A stretch of DNA of 64,000 nucleotides, taken from contig JABJJW010000012.1 in NCBI GenBank assembly GCA_018660685.1, positions 124,001 through 188,000 of the forward strand, written 5' to 3'. The notes below the pieces were generated by a model. That model searched no databases. It was not told the origin of the DNA and saw only the letters and a list, made by a program, of their open reading frames with translations. Source of the stretch: Flavobacteriales bacterium (lineage in GTDB: Bacteria; Bacteroidota; Bacteroidia; Flavobacteriales_G; Salibacteraceae). Position numbers and translations under genes: made by a program. Shown in pieces: positions 36,257-46,331 of the stretch (position 1 is the first letter of the stretch; every line of letters starts with the position of its first letter).

Positions 36257-38008
36257 ATGGTGAAATTGTGGCACTACCTTCTCGTTTTTTGTGTAGCATT
36301 TAGTTGCTTCATCAATACTCTTAACCATGATTTTGTCCTAGATGATAAGGCTATCATCACGCAAAACCAGTTTACACAAAAAGGGTTTGAGGGCATCACA
36401 GACCATTTTGCACATAGCTATTGGTATGGTCTGAATGGAAAAGATCAGGGGAATTATCGACCGTTGAGTGGAGCAAGTTTTTCCATTGAGCAAGGGTTAT
36501 TCGGAAATACCCCTCTTCCATTTCATTTATTGAATATCCTCTTCTATTCCCTCCTCTGCGTTGTCTTGTTGAAATGGCTCGAGCAACTTGGGTTTTTCAA
36601 ACCTCTGTGGGCTGTCATTGCTGTCTTGCTTTTCGCTGCACACCCCTTACACAGCGAGGTTGTTGCCAACATCAAGAGCAGAGACGAAATCTACGCGTTT
36701 ATATTTGTGGTTTTAAGCTTCATTGCCTTTACCAATTCACTGAGAAAACAGAACAAGCCCCTACTCATTTTATCCGGAGTTTTATTTTTAGCTTCTCTGC
36801 TTTCAAAGGAAACTACCCTTTCTCTATTGCCTGTCTTCTTGATCTTGGCGATAGCTGAAAAGAACGATAGACAGACTTCTATTTTCTCATTGAGTATTCC
36901 TTTCGCAGTCACAATCATCTACCTAGTGATCTATTTGGGTGTGACGGATATTCTGCTGGATCAGGAGTATCACCTTTTCGATAACTCACTGACCCAAGAG
37001 GCAAGCGGCCTTAGTCTTTTCCTATCGAAAATTGCCATACTTGGAAGATACTTGGGCTTGATGTTGATTCCCTATCCACTTCGATATGATTATAGTTTTA
37101 ATACCATTCCCTTATCAGACATTGGTGATCCTTTCCTCTGGTTGGGGATCATGGTTATAATCGGCGCTATACTGCTCACATATATCTCCCTTCGTGGCAT
37201 TAGTGCTGAAAAGCGAACCAAAATATTACTCTTTCTCGGTATCTGCACATTGCCTCTAATTCCAGTGAGCAACTTTCTATTTCTGATCGGTTCGACAATG
37301 GCAGAACGATTCATGTTTATCCCGTCATTCGGAGTTATTTGTATACTACTCCTGAGCTTTGACGTCCCTAGTGTAAATAAGCTGCCCAAATCTGTTCCGA
37401 TGGTGATCGGAGGGTCATTGATCATTCTGCTTGGCGTTCTGACTCTAAACAGGAATAAGGCATGGTCCAGTGACGAAGATCTCTTTGCAAACGATCTGAA
37501 GGTTCTGAGCAACAATGCCAAAGCCCATCACAACCTCGCAAACATCTATGAGCGACATGGCAATGAAGCCGCAGACGAAGCCACGAAAAGGACATATTAT
37601 GAGGGGGCGATTTCATTGATTGAAAAAGCCGAGACCATCCACCCTGTTCCGGAATTCTACAAGCAGTTGGGTGGATTGTATGGTAATGTTCAACGTTGGG
37701 ACGGTTCGATCAAAGCTCTCAACTCCTATCTCGAATTATTCCCAAATGAAGTAGCGGTTTTAAATCAGCTAGGAATGGCTTATGGCATAAGCGGTGATTT
37801 GAATTCAGCCCAAAAAGTATTTAAGCGATCATTTGAACTCAACCCCAACGACGTCCAAGTGTGCATCAATCTTGGTAAGACCTATGGAATGCTTGGTGAC
37901 TACAATAATTCTCTTAGAATATTGGAGAAGGCGCTGATTCTCGAACCTGGAAACGCAGAAGCATCTCGGGCCTATCAAACAACACAGCAAATCGTTGGAG
38001 GATTATAA
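36257..38008 (+). CDS. TMTC-like membrane protein: multi-pass glycosyltransferase plus TPR repeats
   Basis: Residues 1-390 are a multi-pass membrane region starting FINTLNHDFVLDDKAIITQN; the DD just after the first helix and HPLHSEVVANIKSRDEIY are features of the GT-C family seen in protein O-mannosyltransferases and TMTC proteins. Residues about 420-583 hold TPR units (EFYKQLGGLYGNVQRWDGSIKALNSYL, VLNQLGMAYGISGDLNSAQKVFKRSFELNP, VCINLGKTYGMLGDYNNSLRILEKALILEP). A membrane transferase joined to C-terminal TPRs is the arrangement of animal TMTC proteins, which O-mannosylate cadherins. It likely glycosylates an envelope target. Confidence 0.75.
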   Translation: MVKLWHYLLVFCVAFSCFINTLNHDFVLDDKAIITQNQFTQKGFEGITDHFAHSYWYGLNGKDQGNYRPLSGASFSIEQGLFGNTPLPFHLLNILFYSLLCVVLLKWLEQLGFFKPLWAVIAVLLFAAHPLHSEVVANIKSRDEIYAFIFVVLSFIAFTNSLRKQNKPLLILSGVLFLASLLSKETTLSLLPVFLILAIAEKNDRQTSIFSLSIPFAVTIIYLVIYLGVTDILLDQEYHLFDNSLTQEASGLSLFLSKIAILGRYLGLMLIPYPLRYDYSFNTIPLSDIGDPFLWLGIMVIIGAILLTYISLRGISAEKRTKILLFLGICTLPLIPVSNFLFLIGSTMAERFMFIPSFGVICILLLSFDVPSVNKLPKSVPMVIGGSLIILLGVLTLNRNKAWSSDEDLFANDLKVLSNNAKAHHNLANIYERHGNEAADEATKRTYYEGAISLIEKAETIHPVPEFYKQLGGLYGNVQRWDGSIKALNSYLELFPNEVAVLNQLGMAYGISGDLNSAQKVFKRSFELNPNDVQVCINLGKTYGMLGDYNNSLRILEKALILEPGNAEASRAYQTTQQIVGGL

Positions 38009-38965
38009 AAGTCGTTTTGACTCCAAGTAGTTATTTCTGTCGGGAGAGTTCCTTGAAACGAGCTCACCTAGGAATCCCGCTAAAAATAGTTGGACACCAA
38101 TTATCATTGTCACCAAAGCCATGTAAAACCAAGGCCGATCTGTGATCAAAGGAGCGTGAACTTTTACAGAAAGGTAGTACAGCTTCTCTGCTCCCAAGTA
38201 CGCTGCCAGTATGAATCCGATGAAGAACATGAGCGTCCCTATGAGTCCAAAGAGGTGCATTGGTTTCTTCCCAAACTTGCTCACAAACGTGATTGAAATG
38301 AGATCTAAGAATCCATTGATGAATCGCTCGAGACCGAACTTGGTCGTCCCGTACTTGCGTTCCTGATGTTGAACTTCCTTCTCACCAATCTTCCTAAATC
38401 CCGCCCACTTGGCAATTACAGGAATGTATCGATGCATTTCGCCATAGACCTCCACGGTTTTAATGACTTCGTTCTTGTATGCTTTTAGCCCACAGTTGAA
38501 ATCATGTAGGTAGATACCACTCATTTTTCGAGTTGCCCAATTGAATAGTTTAGTCGGAATCGTCTTGGTGATCGGATCAAATCGCTTCTTTTTCCATCCC
38601 GAAACCAAATCGTATCCTTCATCCATCACCATTCTATACAGGTCTGGAATCTCATCGGGGCTGTCTTGGAGGTCTGCATCAAGTGTAAACACGACATCTC
38701 CAGTAGCGGCTTCAAACCCGACATTCAATGCCCCGCTTTTACCGTAATTTCTTCGAAACCGGATACCTTTCACATTCGGATCGGATGCGTGGAGCTGTTC
38801 AATAATTTCCCAAGAATTATCCTTACTTCCGTCATCTATGAACCAAATTTCATAGGTGAACTGGTTGGCATCCATTACGCGCTTGATCCAAGCGTGTAAT
38901 TCAGGAAGAGATTCTGCTTCGTCCAGCAAAGGAATAACACATGAAATATCTAGTCTATTGCTCAT
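38003..38965 (-). CDS. GT2 polyprenyl-phosphate glycosyltransferase (DPM1/GtrB-like)
   Basis: The protein starts DISCVIPLLDEAESLPELHAWIKRVM with the GT2 domain (IWFIDDGSKDNS, VVFTLDADLQDSPDEIPDL with DxDxxD, GWKKKRFDP) and ends in two membrane helices (GLIGTLMFFIGFILAAYLG and ALVTMIIGVQLFLAGFLGELV). This is the layout of dolichyl/undecaprenyl-phosphate sugar synthases, which supply lipid-linked sugar to GT-C enzymes such as those at 32621 and 36257. The 3' end overlaps that of the TMTC-like gene by six bases. Confidence 0.92.
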   Translation of the reverse strand: MSNRLDISCVIPLLDEAESLPELHAWIKRVMDANQFTYEIWFIDDGSKDNSWEIIEQLHASDPNVKGIRFRRNYGKSGALNVGFEAATGDVVFTLDADLQDSPDEIPDLYRMVMDEGYDLVSGWKKKRFDPITKTIPTKLFNWATRKMSGIYLHDFNCGLKAYKNEVIKTVEVYGEMHRYIPVIAKWAGFRKIGEKEVQHQERKYGTTKFGLERFINGFLDLISITFVSKFGKKPMHLFGLIGTLMFFIGFILAAYLGAEKLYYLSVKVHAPLITDRPWFYMALVTMIIGVQLFLAGFLGELVSRNSPDRNNYLESKRLL

Positions 38966-39494
38966 CGCTTACCTCAAAGGTCGGGGGATTTTGCTTTACT
39001 ACCGCCGCAACAATCAGTGCAATCAATATCGATCCGAGCGACTTGGACTGAAAATCATTGAGCGCAAGGCTTTGGAGATCAAATGCCTTATTGTATTCAA
39101 GCATTTCTTCATACGTGTCCTTACCCAGAAGAGAGATGACCTGATCTTTGCCTTCACCAAGTGCTGCCAAGTTTTCATTGATGACTAGGTCAACAAATCC
39201 ACCGTCGATCGTTAAACCAAACAGGTATACGAGCATTCCACACAAAGAGGAGTAAATGAAACTAAACAGGACACCGAGCATGAAACCTCTTCCGTATTTA
39301 AGGAAGCCTTCACCTTCAGTTTCTCTAAAACTCACAAGCGCTCTGTACATAAATAGAGCAGGAATTGCGAGACCTAGAAATTTCCAAGCGCCGAGAGGAT
39401 TCGAGTTTAAAACGTAGTATACAATTAAGAAGTAGGCGAACGCTGCTAAACCCGCTATACTTCCATTGTTGAGTATTGGTGCGTACTTTTTCAT
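38955..39494 (-). CDS. DUF4199 membrane protein
   Basis: The ATG at 39494 (MKKYAPILNNGSIAGLAAFA) is favoured over an in-frame start at 39539. Four membrane helices with FLKYGRGFMLGVLFSFIYSSLCGMLVYLF form the Bacteroidota-specific DUF4199 domain; the function is unknown. It overlaps the GT2 gene by 11 bases, and this pairing is one I associate with the family, suggesting a role beside lipid-linked sugar synthesis. A candidate -7 (TACATTTG on the minus strand, 39503-39510) lies just upstream. Confidence 0.85.
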   Translation of the reverse strand: MKKYAPILNNGSIAGLAAFAYFLIVYYVLNSNPLGAWKFLGLAIPALFMYRALVSFRETEGEGFLKYGRGFMLGVLFSFIYSSLCGMLVYLFGLTIDGGFVDLVINENLAALGEGKDQVISLLGKDTYEEMLEYNKAFDLQSLALNDFQSKSLGSILIALIVAAVVKQNPPTFEVSDEQ

Positions 39495-39570
39495 TGGGGT
39501 GGCAAATGTAACACAGACCGACGCAATTGCCACTTGCATGGGTGAGCATCAATTGTACTTTTGCAGCCTT

Positions 39571-39671
39571 AAGGGCAAGTCTTATACGACCAGCTCCTGG
39601 TGAACTCCCCCAGGTCAGGAATGAAGCAAGGGTAACCGGTTGTAGCGGTGCGATGTAAGTAGCTTGCCCTT
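39571..39671 (+). ncRNA. ffs: Signal recognition particle RNA (4.5S-type)
   Basis: GGGCAAG (39573-39579) pairs with CTTGCCC (39663-39669) to close the hairpin. Inside are CTCCTGGTGAACTCCCCCAGG, then TCAGGAATGAAGCAAGGGTA, which is the conserved SRP54-binding helix 8 with its GGAA-type apical region. The RNA of about 100 nt works with Ffh to target membrane proteins. A T8 run at 39673-39680 supplies the terminator, but these bases are also the 3' end of the kinase fusion gene read from the other strand. Confidence 0.93.
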
Positions 39672-40779
39672 ATTTTTTTTCCTCTAGGCTAGGAAAGTGG
39701 AAAGTGTACTTGGTAAACTCTCCTTTCCTGGATTTGAGTTCGAAATTCCCTTTAAGTTTTTTAGCCGTTTGGTCAACGATGTACATTCCTATTCCACTTC
39801 CAAGTTCGCTTGACGGTTCGCGAAAGAAGATCTGAGAAATCTTGTCAATGTTCTCTTCCTTGATTCCAACACCATTATCAGAAACAATAAGGTGTAGCCC
39901 GTTGTCATCAGCCATGGCAACGATATTCAGCTCATTCGTGTCCTTCTCAACATCTCTGTACTTGATCACATTAGAAATAAGGTTAGATAGAATCCTGTTC
40001 AATCTATGTCTATCGGAAACGAATGGTGCATTTTGTTGAATCCTCATGTTTACACTCAGTTCCGAGAAATCTGGATGAGGTTCAAATTCTTTCAGATTAA
40101 AGTCGATCAACTCCTGAACATCAATCTCACGAATGTCAACCGGTTCAACCTTGTTTTTATTGAAGGCTATGATATTCTTCAGATGATTTCTCATCGCCAA
40201 CGCGGTGTTTTCGATGTAGTTGATTAAATCATCTATGTTCTCAGGTGTGATTCCTTCATCCAGAGTCTCAATTGACAAAAAGGGGTCGAGCTCATGAAGC
40301 TCTTGCTGGACTGACAACGTCTTCTTCAATCCTAAATCTCGAATCGGAGCTTTAAGTCTGTTTAAATTAGACAAGTCCAACGTGTCCATGTCTGCAATCT
40401 TAAGGTGGCCAAAGACCCGCTCCATTGCCATAGTCGTTGCAATAGAACGACCCACAGACATTCCTATAATTCCTATTCGCTTTTCACCCAACTTCTCCTG
40501 TTCGGACAACGTGATTTTATTTTGGTTGCGATTCGTTCTCACTTTATTAAAATCGGCTCTGTTTAGAGTTCGAACTAGTGTTTTGCTCCAATCGAAAAAA
40601 ACCCAGCACCCTGGATAATTTTCTGGAATTTCTTCTCCCGTAACCGCATTGATTTTCCTCAATTCCTCAACCTGGTGAGTCAGTCTATCGATTACCTCAA
40701 CCGACTCATCATCAATGAGTTGAGATATTCGAGACATATCAATTGGCACATCAGATTCAAGAATCTCGGGAGGAATCAT
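39670..40779 (-). CDS. Fusion of a ThiF/E1-like N-terminal domain to a histidine kinase core
   Basis: Residues about 88-186 resemble the adenylate/NAD-binding half of ThiF/E1-like enzymes, closest in my memory to the Rv1355c family: KRIGIIGMSVGRSIATTMAME (glycine loop), then HLKIADMDTLDLSNLNRLKAPIRDLGLKK, the E1 motif with DxDxxxxSNLNR. The domain stops before the conserved catalytic-Asp strand. Residues about 187-369 are a kinase half: NTALAMRNHLKNIIAF (a possible DHp helix), RLNRILSNLISNVIKY (N box), SDNGVGIKEENIDKI (G1), GSGIGMYIV (G2). No sensor or membrane segments are seen. A response regulator diverges from its 5' end. Confidence 0.8.
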   Translation of the reverse strand: MIPPEILESDVPIDMSRISQLIDDESVEVIDRLTHQVEELRKINAVTGEEIPENYPGCWVFFDWSKTLVRTLNRADFNKVRTNRNQNKITLSEQEKLGEKRIGIIGMSVGRSIATTMAMERVFGHLKIADMDTLDLSNLNRLKAPIRDLGLKKTLSVQQELHELDPFLSIETLDEGITPENIDDLINYIENTALAMRNHLKNIIAFNKNKVEPVDIREIDVQELIDFNLKEFEPHPDFSELSVNMRIQQNAPFVSDRHRLNRILSNLISNVIKYRDVEKDTNELNIVAMADDNGLHLIVSDNGVGIKEENIDKISQIFFREPSSELGSGIGMYIVDQTAKKLKGNFELKSRKGEFTKYTFHFPSLEEKK

Positions 40780-40882: not shown

Positions 40883-41365
40883 ATGAATGGAAGTAGTTCG
40901 AATATGGATGACGCGGTAAATGTGCTTTATGTTGATGATGAACAAACGAATCTGTTCAGTTTCAAAGCATCGTTTCGAAAGGATTTTAACGTGTTCACCG
41001 CAGAAACGGGCGCCGAGGGACTCGAAATACTGCAGAATGAGGTCATTCACATCGCCATATCGGATCAGCGCATGCCTGAAATGAGTGGTATTGAGTTTTT
41101 TCAGACTGCCAAAAAGAAGTACCCAGACCCTATTCGGATTCTGCTCACAGGGTATGCCGACATCAATGCCGTTATTGATGCGATCAACATGGGAGAGGTT
41201 TATCGATACCTCACCAAACCGTGGAATGCGGAAGAAGTTAAGTCTGTTATCCGGGATGGCTTTGATTTGTTCCGTCTCCGAGAAGAGAATCGGATCCTCA
41301 CAGAACGCCTGATAAAAGCGAACGAACAGCTCGAATTCCTGCTTCGCCAGAATCTAATCAGCTGA
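40883..41365 (+). CDS. Response regulator, receiver domain with helical tail
   Basis: The receiver domain has the acidic pair Asp18/Asp19 (YVDDE), phospho-acceptor Asp61 (AISDQRMPEMSG), ILLTGYAD with Thr, and YLTKPWNAEE with the conserved Lys. The AISDQRMPxMxG/LTGYADxxAVxxAIN pattern is that of RpfG-type receivers, but no HD-GYP domain follows; the last 35 residues are a coiled-coil helix (LFRLREENRILTERLIKANEQLEFLL), an output or dimer helix. A second ATG at 40904 is also possible. It shares a 103-bp intergenic space with the kinase fusion. Confidence 0.9.
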   Translation: MNGSSSNMDDAVNVLYVDDEQTNLFSFKASFRKDFNVFTAETGAEGLEILQNEVIHIAISDQRMPEMSGIEFFQTAKKKYPDPIRILLTGYADINAVIDAINMGEVYRYLTKPWNAEEVKSVIRDGFDLFRLREENRILTERLIKANEQLEFLLRQNLIS

Positions 41366-41439: not shown

Positions 41440-44409
41440 ATGAAGTATGTTACTCTATCACTATTCTTTTTTGTCTTAATGCTCGGCTTATCGAGCGAAG
41501 CTCAAATTGTGTTTAATCGAACCGAACACGACTTCGGGAATATCTCCACTTCTCAACACAGTTTTGAGCAAGATTTCATCTTTCGAAACACCGGAATTGC
41601 CCCAATTAAAATTCTCTCGGTTAAAGCCGTGAGTGGAGTTCTGTCCTTCGTTCATACAAGATCAGAGGTTCTTAGCAAGGAGTATGGGTTTGTCAAAATC
41701 AAATTATTGACTGAAGAAAGCGACGGGCTCTTTCACGATGAGGTTTACATTACTCTGAAACAAGGTGATGAACTATTAAGTGAAGTTCTGTATGTCCGTG
41801 CCAACATATCAGATGATGGGACGACCCAAGAACGACAGTTTCAAGATGGTGTGATTTCTACTTCCGTGGAAGTATCGCCAGAAGACATTGAGACGATGGA
41901 AGGGTTTATGGGTGATGACAAGCTTAAAAAAGCTGAATCAGAGTTAGTCTACTTAAAGAAGCAAGTTTCACTAAAAGATGAGTTAATCTCCAAACTGAGT
42001 AGTGATCTTTATCAGCAGTCAGAGGAGAAAAATGAAAATTTGAACCGCCTTGCAGAGCTCGAAAAAACTTTGCAGACAGATGGGGCTAGTAGCTCAGAGG
42101 CTGTGGCTCAAATTCAAGAACTCACTACTCGACTGATGTCGATGAAATCTTCAGACAGTCTTCTACGCCAAGAAATTGACTCACAGGAAGACCTTTTCGC
42201 ACGATTGCAAACTCAAGCTGATTCAGCTCAACAGCACGCAGTTAATCTAAGTACAGAGCTAAAAACACGATTTGACTCTGAAGCGAAAGCGATCGAAAAA
42301 GCCCAAGATCTTCAAGCAGATTTGGATGCTCAGAAAGACCGAGAGCTCTTGCAACAAGCTCACATAGATTCACTGCAGTACGTGCTCAGCGCAACTCAAT
42401 CTTCGAGTGAATCTACCCAAGATGAGATTCAGCGCCTACAGGGGGAGTTGGCAATGAAAGTGAAGGAACAAGATATGCAGAGCGATCACATGAACGAGCA
42501 GCAGCAGAAGATCGAATTACTGAAATCAGAAAAGGAATTATTCGCCAATTCGACCGATAGTCTCAATCAATATTTAGCCAAAAGCAACAAGAGCAATGAA
42601 GAGCTTGAATCCAAGCTCACTGCGAGTTCCAGCAGATTGAATGAATATGAAAATCGGCTAGATAGTTTGAACTATCTCGTGAAAATCACGAGTACTCAGA
42701 GCGACAGCTCAACCACGGAACTTCTAGCCCTTCGAAAGAAACTATCGGAGATGGAAAGTGCCGACGAAAAGCTTCATATCCAACTCAATGATCGAGAGGC
42801 TGAATTGACCGCTCTCCAACAAGAAAAGGCCTATTTAGAACATTCAAGCGACAGCGTTTCGTCTTATCTTTCTGAAGCAGCCAAAGCCAATGAACAACTA
42901 CAAGATGAGTTGAAAAGCAGTAGTTCTCTTGTGGAAACCTATGCCAATCAAATCGATAGCCTATCCATAGTCGCGAGTCAACGTGGAGCAAACTCGGATA
43001 GTACTGCTGCCCAACTCGTTCAATTGAATTCCGTTATTAAGTCCTATGAAAAGTCCGAGTTGGCGCTTGCATCTCAACTAAAACTTCGAGAAGAGGAATT
43101 GACTTCTATACAAGATGAGAAAGCGACACTTGAAGTTTCGAGTGATAGCATCTCCACTTTCTTGGAAAACGCTGCAGAAGAAAATGCTGATCTTCAAGAA
43201 AAGCTGATGGCGAGTTCATCGCTTGTCAAATCCTATGCTACTCGCATCGATAGTATTTCAAATCTTGCTGTGTCATCACGTTCCTATACGGACAGTTCTT
43301 CTCAGGCACTTCAGGAGATGAAGTCCAAACTTGCCTCGATTCGGGATCAAGATTCAAAACTCAGAGATGAACTTGAGACGAAGGACAACCAAATAGAATA
43401 GATAACAGAAGAAAAGAATCTTGCTAGGAAGAACATGAAGGCACTGGAACACGCCCCTGGACGACAAGTTGACCTTGCTCAATCCTTAATGCATAAAATC
43501 AACTCTCTTTCGAAAAAGGAGAGTGAAGCCAGAATTGAACTTACCATACTCCAAGATGATTTTAAGCAGAGTAGGATTAAAGAAGACAGTGCTCGCAAAG
43601 CGGTGTACAATTTGACTCTCATCATGCAAGAAAAGCAAGAGTCCATCAGCCAATTAGAGGACAAATTATACAACAAGGATGAAGAATTAGCGGACTCCAA
43701 AAAAGAGATAAACCACATTCAAGCTGCACTCAATGACAAGAACGACGCGTTAAAAACTGCGGATCGTCGAGCCGATTCATTACGCACCATTGTCCAAAGG
43801 TCGGAATCTGGTTCGGGCGATTATCAAAATCAAATTAACTCCCTAAAACAACAGATTGCTAGTACAGAACGGAATAAGACTGAGCTGACTGCGGAGGCTA
43901 TCGAACTCGAGAGCAAGCTTCAAAATGCCCACATGAGTAACGAAATTGTGTTCAAGGAACTCAAGTCGGAAGTCGACCTCATCAGAAACGATCGGGATGA
44001 CTATCGCACGAAGTATCGAGAAGCAATGAAAGAAGTGGAGATGTTGAATGAGGCATTAGCTGAAAGTCGAACCAGCGAAGCAAATTTGAAAGCCTTCGTC
44101 AATGAAATGGATGTCAATCCAAAATCCTTTTCAACCAAAGATGTAGCGGGTGTGGTATTTCGGGTGAGCTTCAGAACGAGTAAAGCACGCCTATCGACCA
44201 ATTCATTTCCTGACATTCAAGAAGAGGTATTTGAGTATGAAGAAAATGAAAAATACCGTTATGCCGCTGGCGAGTTGATTGACATTAATTCAGCCTTCGC
44301 ATTGAAGAACAAACTCAAATCACAAGGGTATAATCTAGCTGCAATAGTCGCATTCCGTGATGGTAAAAGAATCACGCTGAAAGAAGCGCTCGAAACAGCC
44401 GAAAACTAG
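41440..44409 (+). pseudogene. Large secreted coiled-coil protein with SPOR-like end, interrupted by TAG
   Basis: One frame of 990 codons is broken only by a TAG at 43399-43401 (codon 654). It encodes a signal peptide (MKYVTLSLFFFVLMLGLSSEAQ), a DUF1573-like domain (FNRTEHDFGNISTSQHSFEQ), a long coiled coil, and a SPOR-like C-terminus ending AFRDGKRITLKEALE. Three tandem 98-residue repeats start at residues 371, 469 and 567 (nt 42550, 42844, 43138). The stop falls on the column that is Ala in unit 1 and Ser in unit 2 (LTALQQEK, LTSIQDEK), so TCG to TAG is a simple origin. A 324-residue restart at 43435 would lack the export signal. Confidence 0.8.
42550..43400 (+). repeat. Tandem 98-residue coding repeats
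   Basis: Units of about 294 bp start at 42550, 42844 and 43138; each opens S-x-D-S-(V/I/L)-xx-(Y/F)-L and contains ASSSxxxxYxxxIDSL. Unit 3 is cut by the TAG. Residue divergence is large, so the duplication is old. Confidence 0.75.
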
Positions 44410-46331
44410 TCTATCACTACAAATATCAAGTGAGCTACGTTCGATCCAGCGACGTACTGAGCGGTGTAAACCCCAACCGGGAGACCGTTTACTTCCACTC
44501 CATTTCCTTGCAGGTTTTGAGAGCTCACTAACTGACCAGATTGGTTGAATATTTGAAGGGTTCCTCCTAACTCGCCGTCAACTTGGATGATCAAGTTGTC
44601 AGAAGTCGGGTTTGGATAAGCCTTCATTCCGATCGTTCCTAATTCTGCAATGCCAGTTGGATAATCCATGGTCTCTTCTTCACCAATTTGATACCCCACT
44701 GTGAATGACAGCTCTTGCTCGCATCCAAACTCATTGTCGAACATATGCAACGGTGGGAAGAACTCCCCATCTTCTCCACTGTGAAGCCAAATTCGGCCAT
44801 TACCATCATTGTTCGCAAAGAAGCTGAGTCCATCACATCCAGAATCGGTTACTTTCAGTGTATAACAACCTGGGCTATCAAACTTGACCGTATCAGTGTA
44901 GGCGGTGTTTGAAAAACCTGAATTGCGCTCATAGATAACGTCACCACGATCAGATACAACTTTATACTTCGTCTCATTACCAGCAGCATTCGAATTGTAT
45001 GCGATTACAATTTTGTCCGGGAAAACTGGGGTGTCCTCAAATCTAGATTGAAAATGATTGTTTCCTTCATAGCCGTCTTCACCTAGATTCACTCCAACGA
45101 TTTTTACGTGAAAGATATTCTTCGTTTTTCCTCCAAACAGCCATTTGTCATAGGCCGGAAGTGATACTGTGGTACTATGTCCAGGAGCAAGAGACCCGGT
45201 CCATTCGTGACGGATTATTTCTGGACTTCCTTCGACCCAGAATTCGAAACTGACTTTCGTAACATTGTCCGCTCCAGAATTGGAAATCACAACCTCTGGA
45301 TTGTTGCAAATTGGATTGACATCCCAAACGCGGTCATTCATTGATGGCTTCGTCACGTCATCAATAGCCACATCTGTTTGAAAATTCCAATCACCGTACT
45401 GAAAAATCGTCGATTCGATAATATACTGCGGATCAAATCCCGCGCCTCCTGTGTAGTTGTATGACTCCCAATCAATATTGAACTCGTTGTCTTGTCCAGC
45501 AGTTATAAAAAGGCCAATTTCTGTGTCGAACCTTTTAGTCTGGGCACCTGGACACCATCCAGCTCTGTCGTAGATCCATGTCCCAGTTTGACCTTCAAGA
45601 GGATTGCTTCCACAATCGTCTCTCCAAACATCTTCCTTAACCGCTTCTGTATTATTCACTTTTAAGCTGTACCACTTTTTGCAGAATTCTGCGCAATTTT
45701 CATTTCCGCCAAAACTGTGACCAGAAGCAACCAAACGGTGCTTAGCGCTTGCAGCATCTGCATGGATAGCAATGTCCGTAGGAACAAGATGATCTTCTAT
45801 AGGATTCGTCGAGAAACCATATTTAAATGTGCCGTCATAGAGCGTTGAAACCTCAAGGACCTCGCGCGGAGGCGTCCCTTCAATGAAATCGAAATCCACG
45901 GTCACTGTGAAACCATTTTGCCAGCCGCCGTAATGTGCTCGAACGATTCGCTCACCATTGAGAATCGGAGCATAATCTGTAACGTCGATGACCCATGTAT
46001 GTTTCCAACTAGAATTCTTGTCACCTGCATAGGGCGTAATGATTCGAGTCATTTCAACCCATCGCGTGGTTGAATCATTGACTTCATCCCCAATTTCAAT
46101 TTTGGTCGTATAATCCCATTCGCTGCAGCCGACTCCCGGACAACCGAGCGTGTAGTACATCAGAATTCTGCGGTATTCACCTGTTGCTGGAAACTGAGTT
46201 GTATCATACCAATTTCCATTCCAATCCCAATGAGTATTCTGATGGGATTGGACTCTTGTTGTGTCTCCTTCTGCGGCTTTAATGTTCGCTAGAAAAAACA
46301 ATATGGCTAAAACAGTAAATAATGATTTCAT
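44406..46331 (-). CDS. PNGase F-like secreted protein with type IX sorting domain
   Basis: A signal peptide (MKSLFTVLAILFFLANIKA) precedes two beta-sandwich lobes like the N- and C-domains of peptide-N-glycosidase F: LMYYTLGCPGVGCSEWDYTTKIEI, GHSFGGNENCAEFCKKWYSL and TWIYDRAGWCPGAQTKRFD. Family enzymes remove N-glycans from glycoproteins; the acidic catalytic residues could not be placed confidently, so activity is an inference. The C-terminus (GMKAYPNPTSDNLIIQVDG ... GVYTAQYVAG) is a T9SS type A sorting domain. Its 3' end overlaps the coiled-coil pseudogene by four bases. Confidence 0.8.
   Translation of the reverse strand: MKSLFTVLAILFFLANIKAAEGDTTRVQSHQNTHWDWNGNWYDTTQFPATGEYRRILMYYTLGCPGVGCSEWDYTTKIEIGDEVNDSTTRWVEMTRIITPYAGDKNSSWKHTWVIDVTDYAPILNGERIVRAHYGGWQNGFTVTVDFDFIEGTPPREVLEVSTLYDGTFKYGFSTNPIEDHLVPTDIAIHADAASAKHRLVASGHSFGGNENCAEFCKKWYSLKVNNTEAVKEDVWRDDCGSNPLEGQTGTWIYDRAGWCPGAQTKRFDTEIGLFITAGQDNEFNIDWESYNYTGGAGFDPQYIIESTIFQYGDWNFQTDVAIDDVTKPSMNDRVWDVNPICNNPEVVISNSGADNVTKVSFEFWVEGSPEIIRHEWTGSLAPGHSTTVSLPAYDKWLFGGKTKNIFHVKIVGVNLGEDGYEGNNHFQSRFEDTPVFPDKIVIAYNSNAAGNETKYKVVSDRGDVIYERNSGFSNTAYTDTVKFDSPGCYTLKVTDSGCDGLSFFANNDGNGRIWLHSGEDGEFFPPLHMFDNEFGCEQELSFTVGYQIGEEETMDYPTGIAELGTIGMKAYPNPTSDNLIIQVDGELGGTLQIFNQSGQLVSSQNLQGNGVEVNGLPVGVYTAQYVAGSNVAHLIFVVID

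Follow-up and report, generated by a model that had tools for sequence, protein, structure and literature searches.

A ThiF–histidine kinase frame in a Salibacteraceae genome, very probably the deletion remnant of a four-gene operon

Reading frames that join domains not usually found together can mark a new signalling architecture or merely the place where DNA has been lost. This question is raised by a 369-residue frame with an ATG start (39670..40779, minus strand) in the window, i.e. the whole 64,000-nucleotide stretch of Flavobacteriales DNA analysed here. A sequence-only reading had described this frame as a ThiF/E1-like domain followed by a histidine-kinase core and had offered two explanations, namely a real sensor fusion that controls a divergent response regulator, or an in-frame deletion that brought an Rv1355c-type gene and a kinase gene together. 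The frame proved real, with profile matches to both halves, and the evidence strongly favours a more specific version of the second explanation, in which a loss of ~3.9 kb joined the first of four operon genes to the last. The frame is thus very probably a deletion chimera, the remnant of the two outer genes of a deleted operon, and as such a case of ordinary gene decay. An in-frame deletion can mimic a new domain architecture, and here the catalytic residues and the gene neighbours of relatives settle the question.

Anatomy of the chimeric frame

The ThiF/E1-like half (residues 1 to ~184; 40228..40779, minus strand) is delimited by alignments and by its match to the NCBIfam profile NF005901 ‘Rv1355c family’, which covers residues 4–187 with an E-value of 8.7e-61; the score of 206 bits falls short of the family cut-off (476 bits). 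The ThiF similarity is far above chance, and the Pfam ThiF profile also matches (residues 85–188, E 9.2e-15). This half is clearly of the family of Rv1355c/TrzS, OxzB and TyzB, and homologous to the N half of a cyclase of the Rv1355c/TrzS type. TrzS (Rv1355c), OxzB and TyzB use ATP to cyclize N-acyl amino acids to oxazolones (PMC12856293, PMC10404671), and the D217A substitution in TrzS abolishes cyclization (PMC12856293). In the alignment, the chimera retains the glycine loop and the SNLNR motif and has lost the VDECD Asp motif: homology stops at residue ~184, ahead of the VDECD/EVCD motif retained by relatives. On the 722-position NF005901 profile, the match of the chimera breaks off at position 195 and that of an intact relative covers positions 9–339, so that the ThiF part does end before the strand of the catalytic Asp, as had been noted from the sequence. 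Judged by its position, the D/E-x-C-D motif should hold the equivalent of TrzS D217. The chimera therefore differs from TrzS in stopping before the cyclization Asp, in having no flavin oxidase domain and in being joined to a kinase fragment.

The kinase half (39673..40230, minus strand) comprises the second DHp helix and a complete HATPase_c domain (Pfam match to residues 256–364, E 4.1e-19), in which the N, G1 and G2 boxes are intact in the alignment. The full HATPase reported earlier thus stands, while the ‘DHp-like helix’ turns out to be the second helix only, with the phosphoacceptor His missing. The column of this His is a gap in the chimera, and each of the 24 aligned relatives of the kinase concerned, the last one of the operon described below, has H there. 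Compared with REC-DHp-HATPase kinases, this half corresponds to their C-terminal part, without the N-terminal receiver, the first DHp helix and the phospho-His. An ELHELDP stretch considered as a candidate H-box was rejected; it is part of the ThiF fold and aligns with IFETDP or ISEIDP of intact ThiF proteins.

Alignment to relatives places the join at residues ~182–187, around IDDLIN (40218..40236, minus strand), where the similarity of the chimera passes from ThiF, ending with ‘...GITPENIDD’, to the last kinase, beginning at about ‘DLINYIENTALAMRNHLKNIIAFNKNK’. Divergent from the chimera lies a single-domain response regulator of 160 aa (40883..41365, plus strand). It had been called RpfG-like, a label that does not hold, since the protein consists of a receiver only, has no HD-GYP domain and covers only the receiver part (1–140 of 422) of its best NCBIfam match.

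The intact operon in the family and its loss in the genus

In several genomes of the family (G013, G015, G017, G028, G032 and others), the two halves of the chimera match separate frames that share a strand and are spaced by ~4 kb. The ten family loci that were read share one layout; nine are complete and the tenth is cut by a contig end. Their operon encodes, in order, a ThiF-like cyclase (~370 aa), a TrzA-like, GNAT-like N-acyltransferase (~240 aa), a 7TMR-DISM histidine kinase (~710 aa) and a REC-DHp-HATPase kinase (~370 aa), and is divergent from the orthologue of the 40883 regulator. G032 is the exception to this order: its full acyltransferase lies on the opposite, upstream side of ThiF, and directly after ThiF there is a second copy that has diverged and is shortened to 145 aa (L040:9144-9581 and L040:10945-11655).

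One of these relatives, G015, is from another genus of the same family, and its operon (L038:4208-9820) occupies exactly the site of the chimera between the same anchors. Collinearity extends to both sides of the window locus: a glycosyltransferase named by inspection (38003..38965, minus strand; 76% identical in G015), a conserved membrane protein as left anchor (38955..39539, minus strand), the Bacteroidales small SRP RNA (RF04183; 39566..39673, plus strand), then the operon, the regulator (71% identical to its G015 orthologue), a coiled-coil protein gene (41440..44409, plus strand) and, by inspection, a secreted protein with a C-terminal sorting-type domain (44406..46331, minus strand), the last two being the right anchors. 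The kinase half of the chimera is 43% identical to the last kinase of G015, and the sites matching the join lie 3,856 bp apart in that genome. Of the operon, the window retains only the beginning of gene 1 and the terminal part of gene 4, which keep their order and orientation and are joined in frame. It lacks the remainder of ThiF including the D/E-x-C-D motif, both middle genes (acyltransferase and 7TMR-DISM kinase) and, from the last kinase, the phospho-His along with the receiver and the first DHp helix. No undeleted copy of the operon close to the window in DNA sequence was found.

Two details of this region can be mentioned separately. At its 3′ end, the SRP RNA gene shares a few bases with the stop codon of the chimera, which converges on it; in G015, 2 nt separate this gene from the last kinase's stop codon. 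The coiled-coil gene is split by an in-frame TAG at 43399-43401, and its G015 homologue is one unbroken frame of 790 aa; this TAG is either a nonsense mutation or a sequence error.

The removed parts are also missing from the remainder of the window's genome. It contains no second ThiF of the Rv1355c type, the chimera being the sole one, and neither an acyltransferase, such as adjoins Rv1355c/TrzS-type cyclases, nor a DISM sensor domain was found there by queries that match the relatives; the 7TMR-DISM sensor kinase (PF07695/PF07696), third in the operon of relatives, is thus wholly deleted. These absences bear on the idea that the assembly skipped ~3.9 kb of an intact operon, which would be conceivable in a draft of 28 contigs. 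This explanation is nevertheless very unlikely, given that a genome 96% complete contains the missing genes at no other place, that the sequences meeting at the join are unrelated and so offer no known repeat to explain a collapse, and that loss of the operon is common in this genus.

Indeed, ThiF, the acyltransferase and a close relative of the regulator are absent from all 12 other genomes of the genus, which also speaks against a real sensor fusion. At eight sister loci, the anchors and the SRP RNA remain, and the regulator and the entire operon are gone. A tree built from three anchor proteins puts the window genome inside the genus, between two groups without the locus; because of this position, complete loss must have occurred at least twice, given vertical descent. 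Genomes of the genus measure 2.1–3.2 Mb, less than those of many operon-bearing relatives, which reach 5.3 Mb; this is a loose correlation with which general gene loss in the genus would fit. That the window genome alone in its genus has any part of the operon could instead suggest that it acquired these genes horizontally and rearranged them long ago. This is the least probable of the explanations considered: G015, although of another genus, has the operon at the same site between the same anchors, and the window adjoins G015 in the (unrooted) trees of ThiF, kinase and regulator.

State and origin of the chimera

The history that best accounts for the locus, by deletion within an inherited operon, would have started from an ancestor in which a lone receiver gene was divergent from genes for a ThiF cyclase, an acyltransferase, a 7TMR-DISM kinase and a REC-kinase, followed immediately by the SRP RNA gene. 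A stretch of ~3.9 kb would then have been lost, from codon ~184 of the first gene to the second DHp helix of the last one, and the ends would have been joined in frame by chance. The 40883 regulator would thereby have been left without both operon kinases, and the locus would represent a half-erased signalling system in a lineage otherwise rid of the operon entirely. With both the adenylation Asp and the phospho-His missing, the chimera should neither adenylate a substrate nor autophosphorylate. The loss of both catalytic residues, together with the lack of a second instance of the fusion, leads us to infer that the chimera is non-functional and the deletion recent, non-function being a weaker claim than deletion origin.

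Several features count against the deletion reading, namely the open frame, the intact HATPase motifs, the lack of a clear evolutionary speed-up and the draft state of the genome in 28 contigs. In a simple neutral simulation, a 369-codon frame stays open in <5% of runs beyond ~0.1 substitutions per site, so that a frame open over this length implies either a recent deletion or something that holds it open. Agreement at conserved sites is lowest for the chimera among the compared sequences in the ThiF half (34/39, next lowest 35/40) and tied for lowest in the kinase half (16/20), a weak sign that constraint may be relaxed; its branch length shows no clear increase over that of the intact G015 copy.

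Some of these features can be taken as signs of a functional fusion under selection, in which the ThiF half would bind a nucleotide or ligand, while the kinase half, though without its His, would regulate, dephosphorylate or inhibit the divergent receiver in an ATP-dependent manner. The open frame, the intact HATPase motifs, the conserved glycine loop of ThiF, the retention of the divergent receiver (missing from the rest of the genus) and the absence of a marked rate increase would agree with such a role. Yet the fusion was found in one genome only, while relatives carry separate intact genes; a search for it elsewhere yielded none in the other genomes of the genus, no other among 35 family genomes and none recognized in a 395-genome sample of the class, judged by frame lengths and the loci read, and searches of contigs with the chimera protein returned only partly matched kinases and ThiF proteins. 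As both catalytic residues are lost, agreement at conserved sites is lowest and sister genomes lack the locus entirely, a selected fusion is very improbable, and the sensor fusion of the sequence-only reading, controlling the divergent regulator, is not supported.

The ancestral operon across Bacteroidia

If the chimera is ordinary as a fusion, its interest lies in the intact operon from which it came, which is apparently undescribed: searches of the literature by titles and abstracts found no description of the four-gene arrangement. The ThiF of intact relatives adjoins an acyltransferase, as in trzAS and oxzAB, and a signalling role of oxazolones has been suggested from structural similarity (PMC12856293).

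Loci of this kind occur across Bacteroidia (L038:4208-9820, L039-L046, L153-L165, L168-L171, L176-L179, L181 and L182). When loci of the class were drawn from outside the family by ThiF similarity alone, the 7TMR-DISM kinase adjoined the synthases in 23 of the 24 loci from other families (the exception being L152), and the divergent lone receiver was also present at most of them; the REC-kinase is often found. The tailoring gene varies, being either ThiF alone, ThiF within a frame of 750–800 aa, or a SAM methyltransferase. The long frame is exemplified by G117, with a full-length match to NF005901, as in TrzS with its flavin oxidase. In three genomes of the family, a SAM-dependent methyltransferase replaces ThiF between the acyltransferase and the 7TMR-DISM kinase (L166:6967-7737, L167:7847-8614, L175:6278-7033), and the swap suggests an exchangeable tailoring step.

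The acyltransferase is probably TrzA/OxzA-like, as indicated by its place beside ThiF and by a profile comparison with the neighbour of Rv1355c on a Rhodococcus plasmid, which aligned 184 columns with an E-value of 2.6e-4 and an hhalign probability of only 42%. In Pfam it gives only weak GNAT/FeeM matches, no usable match to a PDB structure was obtained with the single sequence or a profile, and the GNAT beside a Streptomyces ThiF gave no alignment with it.

A constant acyltransferase and sensor kinase combined with an exchangeable tailoring enzyme are what would be expected if the kinase senses the product, and the 7TMR-DISM kinase of the operon may thus recognize the output of the putative synthases. 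Tentatively, with the odds close to even but leaning slightly against, the operon could represent a widespread Bacteroidia system in which acyltransferase and exchangeable tailoring enzyme make an acylated amino-acid (oxazolone-type) signal, sensed by the 7TMR-DISM kinase and relayed via the REC-kinase and the lone receiver. In placing a membrane sensor beside an acyltransferase that probably makes an acylated amino acid, the operon would recall, purely as an analogy, LuxI-type acyl-homoserine-lactone signalling; it differs in the family of its acyltransferase, its tailoring by ThiF or methyltransferase and its use of a 7TMR-DISM kinase rather than LuxR. By setting enzymes of oxazolone-type biosynthesis beside a dedicated sensor kinase, the intact operon makes the signalling idea directly testable.

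A further observation concerns the Rhodococcus plasmid, which carries a GGDEF gene near the Rv1355c gene (L183:1464-3199), an arrangement that recalls M. tuberculosis, where genes of c-di-GMP turnover have been reported next to trzAS (PMC12856293).
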